Origin: Rhodobacteraceae bacterium DSL-40
GTDB lineage: Bacteria > Pseudomonadota > Alphaproteobacteria > Rhodobacterales > Rhodobacteraceae
Direction: 5' to 3'
Length of the DNA stretch: 64,000 bases
Assembly: GCA_003258405.1 (NCBI GenBank)
Contig: QKPN01000005.1
Coordinates: 186,001 to 250,000 of the forward strand
Translations under genes and position numbers: made by a program
Shown: one piece after another, positions 5,283 through 50,558 of the stretch
Position numbering within the stretch: the stretch's first letter is position 1
Layout: every line of letters starts with the position of its first letter
Notes under the pieces: generated by a model
Databases searched by the model: none
The model's input: only the letters and a program-made list of their open reading frames with translations
What the model was told of the DNA's origin: nothing

Positions 5283-5502
5283 AAATCTCAAAACGCCATT
5301 GGAATCATTGAATTTTCGTAGTTAACATATCATGAATGGCGCGGGGGCGAGCCTTTGCGGCGCAAGCCGGGCGTGGCCGTGATGTGCGGGAGCGGTCGCC
5401 CTGATGCGGTGGTGAGCCGATGCGGGCGCCGGGATCGGGGCGCCGGGATCGGGGGACATCGCCGTGGGGCCTGCGCCTAGGGAGCGCCGAAGCCCCGGGC
5501 GG

Positions 5503-9254: not shown

Positions 9255-9389
9255 GAAAAGAGACGTCACACACATTTCTTAATCGGTCGTAAATCGCCAT
9301 GGGCGACTGGTCCAGCCCGCTGATGCGCTGCTATAGGGAGAGGGCCGCTCCTGAACTCCCGGCGGGCGGCAGAGTGATCGAAGGTGTGA

Positions 9390-41870: not shown

Positions 41871-41886
41871 TTTAAGAAACCTTCAA
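41871..41886 (-). promoter_or_regulatory. CtrA-type site upstream of motA
   Basis: Read on the minus strand, TTGA-N7-TTAAA matches the CtrA consensus TTAA-N7-TTAAC with two mismatches and exact spacing. It lies about 70 bases before the motA start, in the 207-base gap after the MotE-like gene. A role is likely only if CtrA or the fusion protein binds it. Confidence 0.4.
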
Positions 41887-42597: not shown

Positions 42598-43362
42598 TTA
42601 GCGGTTTCCTCCTCCAGCGGCTAGGGAGCTCAGGGCTTCCAGCAGGTCTTCCTCGCTGTTGACGGGCTGCAGTGCCGCGCGGTTGCGGAGCGGGTTGCCG
42701 AGCGGGGGAAGGGGCCGGGGTTTCGGAAGGTCCACCTCCGTGGTCTCGCGCGGCTTCTGGGGCCGGAGCCGCAACAGGGCTGCCCCCCTGCGCGGCTTCG
42801 CCGGCGCTGCGGGGGCCTCCTCGACGGCGGCAACGGTTTCCTGGGGCTGCGGTGCCTCGGGCTCCGGAGCGGCGGCAGGAGTGTCCGCTGTGTCATCGGC
42901 CGGTTGCGGCGCCATTGCCTGCGCTGATCTGGGCTCCGCGGCGGGCGCCGGAGCCTCGGGCGCGGCCGGCTGCACGGCGGGGCGTGCAGCGGCGGGTGCG
43001 GTGGCGGGAGCCTCCGGTTCCGGCGTGGCAGAGTGGCGCATCCGTTCTCCGGCCTGCGCGATCTGGAAGCGGAGATTGCGCTCTGCGTCCCGCGCCGAAT
43101 GGGTCACACGCACCAGGGCATCGGCACTGTCCTGGGCCTTGGTGATCAGGCTTTGGAGCTCCTTGCGGCCGGTTTTTTCCTTGTTGCGCGACTCCTCGAG
43201 CGTCGTGCGGGCGAGCTCGATCTGGCGCGTCAGTGTCACGATCGCGGCCCCGAGCCCCTTGTCTAGCGATTTGAGATCCTTGACGCGGCGCGACAGCACC
43301 CAGCAGTACCCGCCGGCAAAGAGCGTCGCCGCCATCAGGAGGCCGTTCATCAGCAATTCCAT
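42598..43362 (-). CDS. DUF6468-like flagellar-locus membrane protein
   Basis: A 254-residue protein anchored by one N-terminal helix (about 4-24) and followed by a coiled-coil region (about 28-110, DKGLGAAIVTLTRQIELART). The rest is Ala/Pro/Glu-rich low complexity, ending in a short basic/hydrophobic tail LLEALSSLAAG. The coiled-coil start matches DUF6468 proteins of alphaproteobacterial flagellar loci. It lies between fliL (12 bases) and the MotE-like gene (3 bases). Function unknown. Confidence 0.65.
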   Translation of the reverse strand: MELLMNGLLMAATLFAGGYCWVLSRRVKDLKSLDKGLGAAIVTLTRQIELARTTLEESRNKEKTGRKELQSLITKAQDSADALVRVTHSARDAERNLRFQIAQAGERMRHSATPEPEAPATAPAAARPAVQPAAPEAPAPAAEPRSAQAMAPQPADDTADTPAAAPEPEAPQPQETVAAVEEAPAAPAKPRRGAALLRLRPQKPRETTEVDLPKPRPLPPLGNPLRNRAALQPVNSEEDLLEALSSLAAGGGNR

Positions 43363-43935: not shown

Positions 43936-43950
43936 CTAACCAAATGTTAA
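43936..43950. promoter_or_regulatory. CtrA-type site in the fliL-fliF divergent region
   Basis: On the minus strand TTAA-N7-TTAG matches the TTAA-N7-TTAA core with one mismatch and correct spacing. A second CTAACC lies at 43921-43926, exactly 15 bases from the CTAACC at 43936-43941. The site is 55 bases from the fliL start and 86 bases from the fliF start, so it could serve both. Confidence 0.5.
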
Positions 43951-44035: not shown

Positions 44036-45649
44036 GTGCCGACTAAGTTCCAGACTCTGTGGGAAGGCCTCGAGCCGCGCCAGCGCATCGTCGCGATCCT
44101 GGCGGTTCTGGCCATCTTTGCCACCATGTTCGGGATCAGCCGCGTCGCAACCGCGCCCGACATGGCTCTGCTCTATTCCGGACTGGACGATTCCGCGGCC
44201 GGTGAGGTCGTTGCGGCGCTTGAGGCCGACGGGGTCAAGTTCGACGTGCGCGACAGCTCGATCTATGTCGACCGGGCCGAGCGTGACCGCCTGCGCATGG
44301 ATCTGGCCGCGGACGGTCTGCCGTCGGGCGGGCCCGCGGGCTACGAGATCCTCGACGGGCTGACCGGGTTCGGTACCACGAGCCAGATGTTCGACGCGGC
44401 CTACTGGCGGGCGAAGGAGGGCGAACTTGCCCGCACCATCGTCGCCTCGCCGAATGTGCGTGCGGCGCGCGTCCATATCGCAAATCCGATATCGCAGCCC
44501 TTCTCGCGCGCCCAGACCGCCTCCGCGGCCGTCACCGTGACGATGACGAACGGGGCGCTTGACCAGAAGCAGGCCGAGGCGATCCGCTATCTTGTCTCTT
44601 CCGCCGTGGCCGGGCTGACGCCCGAGGAGGTTGCGGTGATCGACTCGGCGCGCGGCGTCGTGCTCACCGGCGACGAGGATGAGCTTGCCCGCGCCGGTGT
44701 CACCAAGCCGGACGAGCGCGCGGAAAAGCTGCGCAAGAACATCGAGCGCCTGCTTGAGGCGCGCGTCGGCCGCGGCAAGGCGATCGTCGAGGTGAATGTC
44801 GATGCCAACATGGACAGCCAGACCATCACCGAACGCCGCGTCGACCCCGACAGCCGCGTCGCGATCAGCTCCGAGACCGAACAGAGCTCGGAGAATTCCA
44901 CCGGCACCAGCCCCGGCGTCACGGTCGCGAGCAATCTGCCTGACGGGGATGTGCAGGGTGGGGGCGGCGAGAACAACCGGTCCTCGAACCAGCAGCGCGA
45001 ACGGCAGAATTTCGATGTCTCCGAGACCCGCAGCGAGCGGGTGATCCTGCCGGGCCAGGTCCGGCGCATCAATGTGGCCGTCATGGTCGACGGCATCATC
45101 AACACCGCCGCGGACGGCACGCAGCAATGGCAGCCGCGCCCGGCCGACGAGATGGAGACGCTGCGCCAGCTGGTGCAGACCGCCGCCGGTTTCGATGCCG
45201 AGCGCGGTGATACCGTGACGATCGAGTCGCTTCAGTTCACCGCGCCACCGGATCAGGGCACGCTGGTGGAATCGGGGCAGGAGGGTTTCCTCAGGGCCTA
45301 TGGCGCACGGCTGATCCAGGTCGGCGTGCTCGCCGGAATCATCATCGCGCTCATCTTCTTCGTGCTGCGGCCGATGATGAGCCGGCAACCCGCTCCGGTG
45401 ATGGCCGAGCTTTCCGGCGTCGATCCCGACCTGCTCGGGCGTCCGGAAGGACAGGCCGAGCCCGCGCGGATCACCGCCGAGATGACCGACGAGGCAGCCG
45501 ACGACATCCTCGACGAGCTGCCCGCCAACAGCCTCAGCAAGATTGACCGGCTTCGCGACGTGATCTCGAGCCGGAGCGACGATTCCGCGCGTGTCCTGCG
45601 GAGTTGGATCGAAGCCCCAGAAGGTCAGAAGGAGCCAGCAGGGTCATGA
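44036..45649 (+). CDS. fliF: Flagellar MS-ring protein FliF
   Basis: FliF forms the membrane ring on which the flagellum is built. The 537-residue protein has transmembrane helices near residues 20-40 and 424-446, ring-building motifs between them (GLPSGGPAGYEIL, FGTTSQMFDAAYWRAKEGELARTI), a Gly/Asn-rich periplasmic loop (about 290-325), and a cytosolic tail that binds FliG. The start is GTG 44036. It overlaps fliH by 4 bases and begins a rightward operon. Confidence 0.95.
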   Translation: MPTKFQTLWEGLEPRQRIVAILAVLAIFATMFGISRVATAPDMALLYSGLDDSAAGEVVAALEADGVKFDVRDSSIYVDRAERDRLRMDLAADGLPSGGPAGYEILDGLTGFGTTSQMFDAAYWRAKEGELARTIVASPNVRAARVHIANPISQPFSRAQTASAAVTVTMTNGALDQKQAEAIRYLVSSAVAGLTPEEVAVIDSARGVVLTGDEDELARAGVTKPDERAEKLRKNIERLLEARVGRGKAIVEVNVDANMDSQTITERRVDPDSRVAISSETEQSSENSTGTSPGVTVASNLPDGDVQGGGGENNRSSNQQRERQNFDVSETRSERVILPGQVRRINVAVMVDGIINTAADGTQQWQPRPADEMETLRQLVQTAAGFDAERGDTVTIESLQFTAPPDQGTLVESGQEGFLRAYGARLIQVGVLAGIIIALIFFVLRPMMSRQPAPVMAELSGVDPDLLGRPEGQAEPARITAEMTDEAADDILDELPANSLSKIDRLRDVISSRSDDSARVLRSWIEAPEGQKEPAGS

Positions 45650-46269
45650 GTAATTTCCGCTTCCCGACATTTTCCCCCGATCCCGAGCCGAAGCCCGCTG
45701 TCGTGGAAGACAACACGGCCGAAGAACTGGAGAAGCAGCTTCAGGCGGCCCGTGAGGAAGCCTACCAAGCCGGTTTCATCGACGGCCAGGCCGAGGCGAC
45801 CGACTCCCATCTCGCCGATCAGAGCCGGCTCACCAGCGAACTCGTCGAGGCGCTCTGCGACGCGGGGATGACCAACGAGGCGGCCCGCATGCACGTGGCT
45901 GCCAGCATCGCGCCGCTGATCGAGGCGATCGCCCTTGCCATCGCGCCGAGCCTTGCGGATGCAGGCATGCTCGGCGAGGTCAGCCGGATCGTCAGTGATG
46001 CGATCGAGAGCGCGCCGAAGGCCCGCCCGCGCATCCGCTGCGCCCATGAGCTCGCCGTGCCGTTGCAGCGTCTGGTCGAGGAACGCGAGATCTCCGCCGA
46101 AATCGAGGAGGCCCCGGAGCTGCTGCCGCGCGAGGCGCAGATCTTCTGGGATCAGGGCTACGACCAGATCGATCTCGACGCCTGCATCGCCCGCATCCGG
46201 GAGGTGCTGTCTGCCCATTTTAGTCAGGACAACGGGAGCGAGCAGCATGAGCGACGCGGATACGCATGA
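45646..46269 (+). CDS. fliH: Flagellar export regulator FliH-like protein
   Basis: A 207-residue protein between fliF and fliN. It has an acidic N-terminal part, an E/Q-rich helix with a GFIDGQAEATDSHLADQSR stretch, and a conserved C-terminal domain ending in an amphipathic region (FWDQGYDQIDLDACIARIREVLS) like FliH, which holds the FliI ATPase at the export gate. Similarity is weak, so position is an important part of the evidence. It overlaps fliF by 4 bases and fliN by 23. Confidence 0.72.
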   Translation: MSNFRFPTFSPDPEPKPAVVEDNTAEELEKQLQAAREEAYQAGFIDGQAEATDSHLADQSRLTSELVEALCDAGMTNEAARMHVAASIAPLIEAIALAIAPSLADAGMLGEVSRIVSDAIESAPKARPRIRCAHELAVPLQRLVEEREISAEIEEAPELLPREAQIFWDQGYDQIDLDACIARIREVLSAHFSQDNGSEQHERRGYA

Positions 46270-47390: not shown

Positions 47391-48520
47391 GCGACGCCGC
47401 CACCGTTTCGGAAAACGCCCTTGCCACCGTGCTGTCGCGGGGAGAGCTGGCGCTTGCCCCGCGCGGCGAGGAGCGCAACCGGTTGCCGGCCACGATCGAG
47501 CCCAAGCGGCCCGTCAGCACCGAGAGCCTCTCGCAGATCCAGAAGGCCGCGGTCGTGCTTGCGGCCATCGGTCCGGAGCTCGCCTCCGGCTGCCTTCGCG
47601 AGCTTGCCGAAGAGGACATGGAGCGGATCGCCCGCACCCTCGGGGCGCTCGGCAAGGTCAGCCAGGACCTGCTCGACGCAGTGATCATCGAGTTTCTTGA
47701 AGCGCTGACCACCGGGCTTGAGCTGAGCGGGGGTGAGCGCGTCACCCGAGAGCTGCTCGCCGGCCTCATTCCCGACGACGAGATCGACCGCATCCTCGGC
47801 TCGATTCCGGCGGCGAAGGGGCGTGGCGTGTGGGAGCGACTGAACGCAGCCCCGATCAAGGCGCTCGCGGCCTTCCTCGGGGTAGAGCATCCGCAGACCG
47901 TTGCGGTCATCGTCACCGAGCTGCGGCCGGAGGTCGCTGCGAGCGTGCTCGGCGAACTCGACCGCAATTTCGCCCAGTCTGTCGTGCTGCGGCTTGCACG
48001 CATCCCCTCGATGGACAAGGCGGTTGCCAATGCCATGAAGACGGCCATCGACCGGGATTTCCTCTCGGTGCTGCAGAGCACGCTCAGCAAGCGCCGCCCG
48101 GCCGAACTGATCGCGGCCCTGATGAACAACATCTCGAGCGATGTGCGCGAGGGCTTCCTCGGCTTCCTCGAAAGCAAGAACGAACAGCTCGCGCTCGAGG
48201 TCCAGCGGACCATGTTCACCTTCGACGACATCGCCACGCGGCTCAACTCTCGCGATGTTTCGAGCGTGCTGCGCGAAATGGACGAGGAAGAGGTGCTCAA
48301 GGCGCTCAAGCGCGGCCAGCAGCAGCAAAGCGCGACCGTAGATTTCATCATCTCGAATCTCGCACGCCGTCTCGCGGAGCGCTACACCGAGGATCTTGCC
48401 GCCATGCCGCCGGTGCCCGCCAAGGAGGGCGAGGCCGCCCAGATCGAGCTCACCAAGATCATTCTCGAGATGTCGAACCGCGGCACGATTCAGCTGCTCG
48501 AGCTGGAATCCGGCGCGTGA
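47387..48520 (+). CDS. fliG: Flagellar motor switch protein FliG
   Basis: FliG links the MS-ring to the C-ring and contacts MotA for torque. The 377-residue protein has the three FliG domains: N-terminal (LSQIQKAAVVLAAIGPELAS, about 48-150), middle (AFLGVEHPQTVAVIVTELRPEVAASVL, with the EHPQT motif), and C-terminal (MFTFDDIATRLNSRDVSSVLREMD). About 45 extra N-terminal residues precede the core. It lies at the end of the operon instead of next to fliF, a less usual order. Confidence 0.93.
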   Translation: MSDAATVSENALATVLSRGELALAPRGEERNRLPATIEPKRPVSTESLSQIQKAAVVLAAIGPELASGCLRELAEEDMERIARTLGALGKVSQDLLDAVIIEFLEALTTGLELSGGERVTRELLAGLIPDDEIDRILGSIPAAKGRGVWERLNAAPIKALAAFLGVEHPQTVAVIVTELRPEVAASVLGELDRNFAQSVVLRLARIPSMDKAVANAMKTAIDRDFLSVLQSTLSKRRPAELIAALMNNISSDVREGFLGFLESKNEQLALEVQRTMFTFDDIATRLNSRDVSSVLREMDEEEVLKALKRGQQQQSATVDFIISNLARRLAERYTEDLAAMPPVPAKEGEAAQIELTKIILEMSNRGTIQLLELESGA

Positions 48521-48535
48521 CATGGCCGCGGCGAA

Positions 48536-48573
48536 ACAGGCGGATTATGGCTTGCGTTTCTCAATCCGCCTGT
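48536..48573. terminator. 11-bp inverted repeat between fliG and the SciP-CtrA fusion gene
   Basis: ACAGGCGGATT (48536-48546) and AATCCGCCTGT (48563-48573) are perfect inverted copies with a 16-base loop. It lies 15 bases after the fliG stop. It could end the flagellar operon, so that the fusion gene has its own promoter, or be an operator. No T-run follows. Confidence 0.5.
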
Positions 48574-48655
48574 CAGCGGCCTCCGGGAAGGATATGAGAG
48601 GCGCGATCGCGCGCTGGAAGATGAAAACCGGCGCAATCTGTCAGGGACATGAGGC

Positions 48656-49330
48656 ATGACTTTCGACTACCGGTTCCGCAGAGGCGGAGCGCAGCCAGAT
48701 CGGGTGCCAGCGCCGGGAGATACCGGTCCGCGCCGCCCGATGATCGTCCGCAAGCTCAAGGCGCAGGATGACATGGCCGCGTGCAGGGGCGAGATGCGCC
48801 GGAACGAGGCCAGACATCCTGCACCCGAGCCATTGCCCGAACCGGGGGTGCGCTGGACCCGCCAGCGCAAGCACGCGGTGATCCAGGGCATCGAACGCGG
48901 GCAGATCGCGGCGGACGAGGCCTGCCGCCGCTATGGTCTTTCCACGGATGAGCTGGCCGAGTGGCGCAGTGCGAGCGCGACGGGTGGCCGGCCGCCGGTG
49001 GTCTGGCGCCGGCGGCCGCAGACGGTCACCTCCGGCATCCGGACATTCGGTGCCGTCGAGATCGATCTCGATGCCGGGACGGTCCATATCGATGGCACGG
49101 TCCTGCCACTCTCGCCGTCGGAATGGCGTGTGCTGCAGGTCTTCGCCGAAGCCGATGGTGCGGTGGTGACGAGCGCGATGGTGATGGGCGCACTCTATTC
49201 GGGGCTCGACAAGGTCGCGACTCCGAAGATCGCCGATGTGCTGGTCTGGCGCCTGCGCCGCAAGCTTGGTGACGAGGCCCGAAGGCTCGTCGCAGTCTGG
49301 GGGCGCGGCTTCCAGCTCGTCCCCGACTGA
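48656..49330 (+). CDS. SciP-like (DUF1153) domain fused to a CtrA-type winged-helix DNA-binding domain
   Basis: A 224-residue protein with two recognisable parts. Residues about 64-104 (VRWTRQRKHAVIQGIERG, then DEACRRYGLSTDELAEW) match DUF1153, the helix-turn-helix domain of SciP, which inhibits CtrA in Caulobacter. Residues about 130-222 match the C-terminal OmpR-type domain of CtrA, ending KIADVLVWRLRRKLGDEARR and VWGRGFQLVPD. There is no receiver domain, so it cannot be phosphorylated like CtrA. The first 63 residues are basic and of no known family. Lying just after fliG, it is a likely regulator of this flagellar locus; activator or repressor cannot be told. Confidence 0.82.
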   Translation: MTFDYRFRRGGAQPDRVPAPGDTGPRRPMIVRKLKAQDDMAACRGEMRRNEARHPAPEPLPEPGVRWTRQRKHAVIQGIERGQIAADEACRRYGLSTDELAEWRSASATGGRPPVVWRRRPQTVTSGIRTFGAVEIDLDAGTVHIDGTVLPLSPSEWRVLQVFAEADGAVVTSAMVMGALYSGLDKVATPKIADVLVWRLRRKLGDEARRLVAVWGRGFQLVPD

Positions 49331-49336
49331 AGCGCC

Positions 49337-49927
49337 TCAGCGCACGAGCCGCATCGTATCGCCCGAGATCTCGATCCGGGCGAAGTGGCGCAGATAGCTC
49401 ATCCCGAGCAGCGAGGAATGCAGATCCCCGCCGCTGACTGACGCCCGCACGTTGCGCTCGGTGAAGGGGCCGAGCGAGACAGTGCGGAGCACCACGGGCG
49501 CAATCGCAACCGGCCCGTTCGCCGTGCGCGCCCGGCCGCTATAGTCGAGCGCCTCGGCGCCGATCCCGATCCGGGCCGCATCGGCACGGCTGAGCACGAT
49601 CTGGCTCGCGCCGGTATCCACGACGAGGGTGACGGGCACGCCATCGAGCGCGAGGGTCGCTCGGAAATGGCCGTCGGTATCGCGGCGGAGTTCGACGGTG
49701 TCCCCGCTCACCTGCATCGCCGTTCGCGGCATCAGCTCTCGCCAGATCACGTCGCGGAAACCGTAGGCGATCACCGCCATCGCGAAGATCAGCACCCAGA
49801 CCAGCACGTCACGCAACGTGCGCCCAAGCGAACGGCGCGCGGTGAAGAAATATCCGGCCACGAAGACGAGCAGGAGCGAGAGATAGGCGAGGCGGGCGAT
49901 CGTGTCGGGATCGTCCAGCACGGCCAC
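49337..49927 (-). CDS. Retropepsin-like aspartic protease (TIGR02281 type)
   Basis: A 196-residue membrane protein with two N-terminal hydrophobic helices (about 12-30 and 38-56), then a periplasmic retroviral-type aspartic protease domain with VDTGASQIVLS as the single active-site loop; such enzymes act as dimers. Downstream landmarks are YSGRARTANGPVAIAPV and GMSYLRHFARIEI. Targets are unknown. It ends 7 bases from the fusion gene's stop on the other strand and lies 7 bases downstream of marC. Confidence 0.87.
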   Translation of the reverse strand: MAVLDDPDTIARLAYLSLLLVFVAGYFFTARRSLGRTLRDVLVWVLIFAMAVIAYGFRDVIWRELMPRTAMQVSGDTVELRRDTDGHFRATLALDGVPVTLVVDTGASQIVLSRADAARIGIGAEALDYSGRARTANGPVAIAPVVLRTVSLGPFTERNVRASVSGGDLHSSLLGMSYLRHFARIEISGDTMRLVR

Positions 49928-49934
49928 GCGCGGC

Positions 49935-50558
49935 TCAGCCCGGAAGCAGGCCGAGATCCCCGAGCCCGTTCAGGACGAACTGGACGGAAAGCGCGGCGAG
50001 CAGGATGCCGAGAAGCCGGGTGACGACCACGATACCGGTATGACCGAGGACGCGCTCGATGACCCCACCGAGGCTGAAGAGCACGAAGACCACCGCAAGA
50101 ACGAAGAACAGCACGCCATGGATCGCCGCAATCGCGGCATAATCGCCCTGTACCTGGCTGGTGAGCAGCACCATGGTCGCAAGCGAGGCGGGCCCCGCAA
50201 GCAGCGGCATTGCCAGAGGAAACACCGAAGGATCGGGCGGCGCCTCGTTCGACTGCTTTTCGCGCCGCTCGCTTCGCCGCTCGAAGAGCATTTCGACCGC
50301 GATGAGGAAGAGCAGCAGCCCGCCCGAAATCCGGAATGCCGGCATCCCGATGCCGATGACGCCGAGCACGGAGTCGCCTCCGAGCCCGAAGAGCGTCAGC
50401 AGGCATCCGGCAATCACGATTGCGCGGATGGCGATCTTCCGGCGCTCGGCCTTGCTCATGCCGCTCGTGAGGGTCACGAAGATGGGGGTCGAGCCGATCG
50501 GATCCATCACGACGAAGAGCGTGACGAAGGTCGTGAAGAGCAGATCGGTCGAGATCAT
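49935..50558 (-). CDS. MarC-family integral membrane protein
   Basis: A 207-residue protein with six membrane helices of the MarC/UPF0056 family; landmarks are [20 protein letters not shown] near the N-terminus, and [19 protein letters not shown] in the middle. A polar loop [17 protein letters not shown] divides the two halves. Despite its name, MarC itself does not give multidrug resistance and the family's function is unclear. It overlaps the ABC-F gene by 4 bases. Confidence 0.9.

Follow-up and report, generated by a model that had tools for sequence, protein, structure and literature searches.

SciP and CtrA are partners in the alphaproteobacterial cell-cycle circuit, and in Caulobacter the C-terminal tail of CtrA serves as a degradation signal. 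Two OmpR-type regulators with a demonstrated flagellar role, Rem (Sinorhizobium) and FtcR (Brucella), function independently of normal phosphorylation. Their N-terminal part is receiver-like, they lack a SciP domain, and they are encoded in the flagellar cluster across relatives. According to the part of PMC4287350 available to us, Caulobacter SciP represses at GCGNC sites, which lie mostly 60–90 bp upstream of starts and are accompanied by a CtrA site in 49 of 61 cases, and it also binds CtrA directly. The available part of PMC8973945 describes a ternary complex of SciP, CtrA, and DNA in which both proteins are shielded from proteolysis. Here we describe a gene that joins a SciP-type domain to a CtrA-like DNA-binding domain. 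It lies in a 64,000-nucleotide stretch of contig QKPN01000005.1 of Rhodobacteraceae bacterium DSL-40, called the window below.

SciP-type and CtrA-like DNA-binding domains share one receiver-less chain

The gene occupies 48656–49330 on the plus strand as an intact reading frame, 224 residues long when taken as the longest ORF. An earlier note on this DNA had proposed that it combines a DUF1153-like segment (residues 64–104) and a CtrA-like winged helix (130–222) in one chain, and had named in advance a significant DUF1153 score over residues 60–110 as the test. A Pfam search placed both families above their cut-offs, PF06627 (DUF1153) at residues 59–112 (48.8 bits, cut-off 23.5) with an E value of 8e-13, significant by that test, and PF00486 (Trans_reg_C) at residues 148–221 (37.8 bits, E 2e-9, cut-off 26.2), and the limits given in the note proved nearly right when set against the Pfam and model limits. 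The note also held that the chain has no phosphorylation domain, and no receiver domain was matched in Pfam at E up to 1; the sole further match at that threshold, HTH_Tnp_1, fell below its own cut-off and overlapped the SciP part. Among 18,950 NCBIfam models, the top two for this ORF were CtrA (residues 119–221, 52.5 bits) and SciP (residues 58–112, 49.5 bits), both far from the equivalog cut-offs of 350 and 100, respectively. These searches confirm that SciP-type and CtrA-like DNA-binding domains are present in a single receiver-less chain.

Two orthologues from the same genus gave the same picture, with DUF1153 and Trans_reg_C both above the Pfam cut-offs. CtrA and SciP were the two leading NCBIfam models for each of the three fusion copies, with scores of 52.5, 50.9, and 49.0 bits for CtrA (NF045991), which was the best OmpR-type model in all three, and 49.5, 62.3, and 47.2 bits for SciP, all below the equivalog thresholds of 350 and 100.

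The N-terminal stretch (residues 1–56, 48656–48823) was poorly conserved and may be partly untranslated. The choice of start codon is uncertain, with further in-frame candidates (ATG) at 48740, 48773, and 48794. Similarity to the orthologues began around residues 46–60, and the region ahead of the SciP helices was eroded in the window's copy relative to theirs. The three-helix SciP/DUF1153 domain (residues 59–112, 48830–48991; helices at 69–80, 86–93, and 97–108) was supported by Pfam, AlphaFold2, and Foldseek. A linker (residues 113–124, 48992–49027) leads from it into the CtrA/OmpR-type winged helix (residues 126–222, 49031–49321), in which the recognition helix lies within residues 190–210 and a VWGRG wing spans residues 214–218.

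An AlphaFold2 model built on a 29-row alignment had a mean pLDDT of 79.7 and a pTM of 0.52. At least 90 pLDDT was reached by 125 of the 224 residues, all within the two domains. Block means were 84–97 over the SciP part and 92–97 over the winged helix (except 75 at residues 121–130 and 72 at residues 181–190), 44–56 over residues 1–50, and residues 113–121 were under 50. Because confidence in the linker was low and pTM was 0.52, the model does not fix the relative placing of the two domains. The winged helix of the model matched solved OmpR-type DNA-binding domains with Z scores up to 16.5. All matches listed in Foldseek and VIA-align searches with the full model were to the winged helix, and the SciP part was therefore modelled separately (mean pLDDT 80.2). 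The top two Foldseek matches of this isolated model were the SciP-type NMR structures 2jrt (TM 0.74 by query, 1.3 Å, E 9.5e-3) and 2oa4 (E 8.2e-2), in agreement with sequence matches to the same two entries at E 1.9e-6 and 1.4e-5.

The fusion occurs in addition to a normal sciP–ctrA pair and in one genus

The window's genome (4.37 Mb in 190 contigs) also encodes a separate sciP (127.9 bits), which precedes ctrA by 105 bp in the same orientation; the host CtrA scored 433 bits against the Rhodobacterales-type NCBIfam CtrA model (cut-off 350), and the fusion is located away from ctrA. The nearest named sciP–ctrA pairs come from genera such as Aliiroseovarius and Rhodosalinus, which belong to the Rhodobacterales. 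Such pairing of the two genes is the usual arrangement. Among 76 loci with a clear CtrA, which had been fetched for other purposes and in which some genomes may recur, 74 had sciP immediately before ctrA in the same orientation, with a median gap of 93 bp as judged by ORF ends; one exception (L021) reflected an overlong ctrA ORF call, and no sciP was found at the other (L073). On the same contig as the fusion, about 31 kb before the window, there is also a divergent OmpR-type regulator (C136:154853–155131) that scored 13.9 bits with a CtrA profile.

We found the fusion in three of 11 genomes of the genus, the window's and two called G204 and G202 here, by a query search that was repeated with a profile; the two further copies matched contigs CALMSR010000081.1 (G204) and JAUIHM010000004.1 (G202), both metagenome-assembled. 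A profile of the three copies was then run on overlapping genome samples from the family (394), the class (385), and relatives (293), with the best 7–10 candidates scored per genome where more were listed. Among the matches listed for the family (159 genomes matching at E up to 1e-18), the window's genome had the sole fusion and all remaining matches spanned the winged helix only. At E up to 1e-22, no fusion beyond the window's was found in the class sample and none beyond the three known copies in the relatives. The window's protein itself, searched against 196 genomes of the order, had a full-length match in its own genome only, among the matches listed. No fusion was found in the viral contigs searched, and the plasmid search returned 11 records, all of the winged helix only. 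A scan of genome contigs gave 22 loci, two of which were the G204 and G202 fusions (L080 and L081); of the other 20, 16 had sciP and ctrA as separate genes, L089 and L098 had sciP only, and L088 and L095 had an OmpR-type regulator only. On present evidence, the fusion is restricted to one genus. Separately, about 20 of the 394 family genomes had two or more DUF1153 matches (six in G439 and five in G421), and SciP paralogues may therefore exist outside this genus.

The constant neighbours are a protease gene and a MarC-like gene

In all three genomes with the fusion, it adjoins a convergent gene for a retropepsin-like aspartyl protease (49337–49927, minus strand, in the window), beside which lies a gene for a membrane protein that we take to be MarC-like (49935–50558, minus strand). 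The same site could be compared in three genomes without the fusion (G205, G197, and G196), where the protease and MarC genes, in convergent orientation, come immediately after lptG-lptF-pepA-holC; holC was absent from the stretches fetched for G199, G200, G198, and G201 (L127, L128, L131, and L132), which have the protease–MarC pair without the fusion, and no MarC match was found in G203. The fusion of G202 sits between holC and the protease gene, and that of G204 adjoins the protease gene and is followed by a contig end. In the window's genome, the fusion is flanked by the protease gene and fliG, and holC and pepA are on another contig.

By contrast with this constant pair, fliG was on a different contig from the fusion in both G202 and G204. 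ftsY lay directly after fliG in G204, G202, and G205 and within 1.4 kb of it in G196 and G197. A 19.9-kb stretch surrounding the window's fusion (L059) contained no match to ftsY. For these comparisons the pepA, ftsY, and eamA queries were front-shortened, and abcF matches show only the place of similar DNA. The constant neighbour is thus the protease–MarC pair. fliG seems to have arrived late, in one genome, and its placing beside the fusion looks accidental. A rearrangement is visible in the window's lineage at 48520–48656 and in L141: fliG closes the flagellar cluster and borders on the fusion–protease–MarC block, and holC-pepA-lptF-lptG is on another contig.

CtrA boxes at the flagellar genes do not track the fusion

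The earlier note had placed the gene just downstream of fliG, which is correct for the window's genome, and had suggested that it could give a flagellar switch independent of CtrA. Two CtrA-box-like sites were present where the note put them, at 41872–41886 upstream of motA and at 43936–43950 between fliL and fliF, each with one mismatch to TTAA-N7-TTAA. Four sites within one mismatch of this consensus occur in the window, compared with 0.29 expected; the other two (5322–5336 and 9279–9293) are outside the flagellar genes. A CtrA-type box was found between fliL and fliF, or before fliF, in all six flagellar loci examined, three of which come from genomes without the fusion (G205, G196, and G197), and a motA-side box was found in four of the five loci where motA was found (L059, L133, L135, and L137; absent from L136). 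Because the boxes also occur in fusion-free genomes, ordinary CtrA is enough to explain them.

fliG was present in 10 of the 11 genus genomes, compared with three for the fusion, and it is beside the fusion in the window's genome only. Since neither adjacency to fliG, nor the CtrA boxes, nor the presence of fliG tracks the fusion, we rejected a flagellar switch as the main reading, and the flagellar role put forward in the note was not supported. The only tie to flagella that we found is the position of the fusion in one genome.

The 41872 box has no GCGAC/GTCGC half-site within 150 bp, and the sole half-site of this form by the 43936 box was at 44090. These results, together with the lack of any CtrA box with up to two mismatches at 48400–48900, count against the explanation of function that we prefer. 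Two ORFs in the flagellar cluster had no Pfam match at E up to 0.001: one at 45604–46269 between fliF and fliN, perhaps FliH-like by position, and one at 42598–43362 beside fliL, which encodes 254 residues and is rich in alanine and proline.

Probable single origin and rapid divergence

The three fusions formed one clade both in a winged-helix tree (support 99/98, with the bootstrap unsettled) and in a SciP tree (97/93). The former contained the CtrAs of the 11 genus genomes and every second family CtrA (44 in all), together with eight OmpR-type domains of the host's own and two foreign ones (L088 and L095); the latter combined all 11 SciPs of the genus with every second one of the family, giving 47 rows with the fusions. 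One match from the window's own genome (L010) was left out of both. The single clade and the common protease–MarC neighbours argue for one origin, most likely in an ancestor of three species of the genus. In the SciP tree, the fusions grouped with the 11 genus SciPs and three of 33 family SciPs (96/82); a grouping of the fusions with the genus SciPs alone differed from the best tree and was not rejected (p-AU 0.146).

A profile of the three fusion winged helices gave 72.4 bits for the host CtrA and at most 48.4 for ten other OmpR-type domains, all ten of which lack the VWGRG wing that CtrA and the fusions share. In the tree, however, fusions, CtrA, and other OmpR-type domains formed three arms with long branches, so that descent from CtrA is not shown by it, and a CtrA profile scored an ordinary paralogue (L004, 59.1 bits) above the fusions (51.6–54.7 bits); both results count against our preferred explanation. 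The domain order of the fusion is the gene order of sciP and ctrA, and its alignment passes from about SciP residue 78 straight to a CtrA segment that starts at about residue 117. From these sequence features we infer an origin by duplication and deletion, in which a copied sciP–ctrA pair would have been shortened by removal of the sciP end, the intervening spacer, and the portion of ctrA that encodes the receiver, and would have come to lie beside the protease–MarC pair. One deletion in the copied pair would suffice.

Amino-acid identity among the three fusions was 42–47%, compared with 97–98% for CtrA and 80–85% for SciP of the same three species. Third codon positions differed at 0.48–0.61 between fusions and positions 1 and 2 at 0.34–0.41, an excess of third-position differences which shows that the reading frame is constrained even as the protein diverges quickly. 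Between copies, the winged helix (49–56% identical) was better kept than the SciP part (38–46%). The recognition helix reads K-x-x-D-V-L-[IV]-[CW]-R-L-R-[RK]-K-L in the fusions and K-I-I-D-V-F-I-C-K-L-R-K-K-L in CtrA, a likeness not found in most paralogues. All three copies have a one-residue insertion in the loop preceding this helix, which paralogue L012 also has, and a turn before the wing that is three residues shorter than in CtrA.

Proposed function and alternatives

Our best explanation, which we judge about as likely as not, is that the chimera is a phosphorylation-independent, two-headed DNA-binding regulator with a repressing or competing action at some promoters of the CtrA/SciP type. 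The SciP three-helix domain, flexible linker, and CtrA-type winged helix would together make a transcription factor independent of the CckA–ChpT–CtrA phosphorelay. Its winged helix would read a CtrA-like half-site, and the SciP domain, in place of the receiver, would provide the second contact, whose partner could be DNA, another copy, or CtrA; the outcome would be repression of, or competition at, a subset of such promoters. We infer both DNA binding by the chimera and the direction of its effect, and competition with CtrA is possible. More tentatively, the protein may act as a natural single-chain SciP–CtrA–DNA repressor complex that keeps CtrA/SciP promoters off, or adjusts them, whatever the state of the phosphorelay. 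If this is true, an inhibitor has been fused in evolution to the DNA-binding half of the protein that it inhibits, and the phosphorylation switch has been lost.

The main rival, which we regard as somewhat unlikely, is a changed target: a neofunctionalised regulator would have left the CtrA circuit for new sites, with the SciP domain serving for dimerisation or as a second DNA-reading head. Very fast divergence beside CtrAs that are 97–98% identical fits this alternative as well, and counts to that extent against the two-headed regulator at CtrA/SciP-type promoters. The loop insertion and the shortened turn before the wing in all three copies, as well as the near absence of SciP half-sites by the two flagellar CtrA boxes, also favour new sites. 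Retention of the CtrA-like recognition-helix pattern, unlike in most paralogues, argues against them.

The better conservation of the winged helix than of the SciP part would also suit a phosphorylation-independent activator, in which the winged helix recruits RNA polymerase to CtrA boxes, bypasses the phosphorelay, and carries the SciP domain as a leftover. The loop before the recognition helix contacts polymerase in OmpR-type activators, and this is where the fusions have their insertion. SciP, moreover, is described as a repressor in Caulobacter in the available part of PMC4287350, and we consider an activator improbable.

Direct binding of SciP to CtrA in Caulobacter, as given in the available parts of PMC4287350 and PMC8973945, would permit a decoy that tunes the normal pair by binding CtrA or SciP when these are free in the cell, with no DNA contact of its own, but each of the three copies has retained the recognition helix and wing, and we consider this very doubtful. 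Occurrence in three of 11 genomes and an assembly of 190 contigs could hint at a decaying pseudogene or an assembly artefact, which we consider scarcely credible given open copies in three separate genomes, their common place, and the third-position excess; the separate copies by themselves make an artefact very unlikely.

A natural receiver-less fusion of two such partners would be a ready-made tool for three questions: through which surface SciP acts on CtrA, whether a single chain can maintain the ternary complex, and how a regulator insensitive to the phosphorelay can be added in a lineage.

Comparison with known systems

DUF1153 and the winged helix are known families, and their combination was not found in the literature searched, which includes the available part of PMC11999139 and excludes most subscription papers. 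Within that scope, DUF1153 was not named, and there was no mention of SciP homologues or paralogues, of SciP-like proteins, or of a SciP domain or family.

The fusion resembles Rem and FtcR in having an OmpR-type DNA-binding domain uncoupled from phosphorylation. Unlike those regulators, it does not share a flagellar-cluster location across relatives, being beside fliG in the window's genome only. With SciP (DUF1153, PF06627; NF051866), the CtrA inhibitor of Alphaproteobacteria, it has the three-helix domain in common, including conserved RW, RK, G, Y, EL, and EW positions. SciP, however, is a separate protein of about 90 residues encoded beside ctrA, whereas in the fusion the end of SciP is replaced by a linker and winged helix, and the SciP scores, at 47–62 bits, reach roughly half to two thirds of the equivalog cut-off. 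CtrA (NF045991) is an OmpR-type response regulator with a receiver; the fusion has no receiver and hence no phosphorylation site, and its copies end in VPD, VL, and IR rather than in the KLAVGA of the host CtrA. What the fusion shares with CtrA is the winged helix, 33–35% identical to the corresponding domain of the host protein, with an LYGG-like stretch, a similar recognition helix, and the VWGRG wing.
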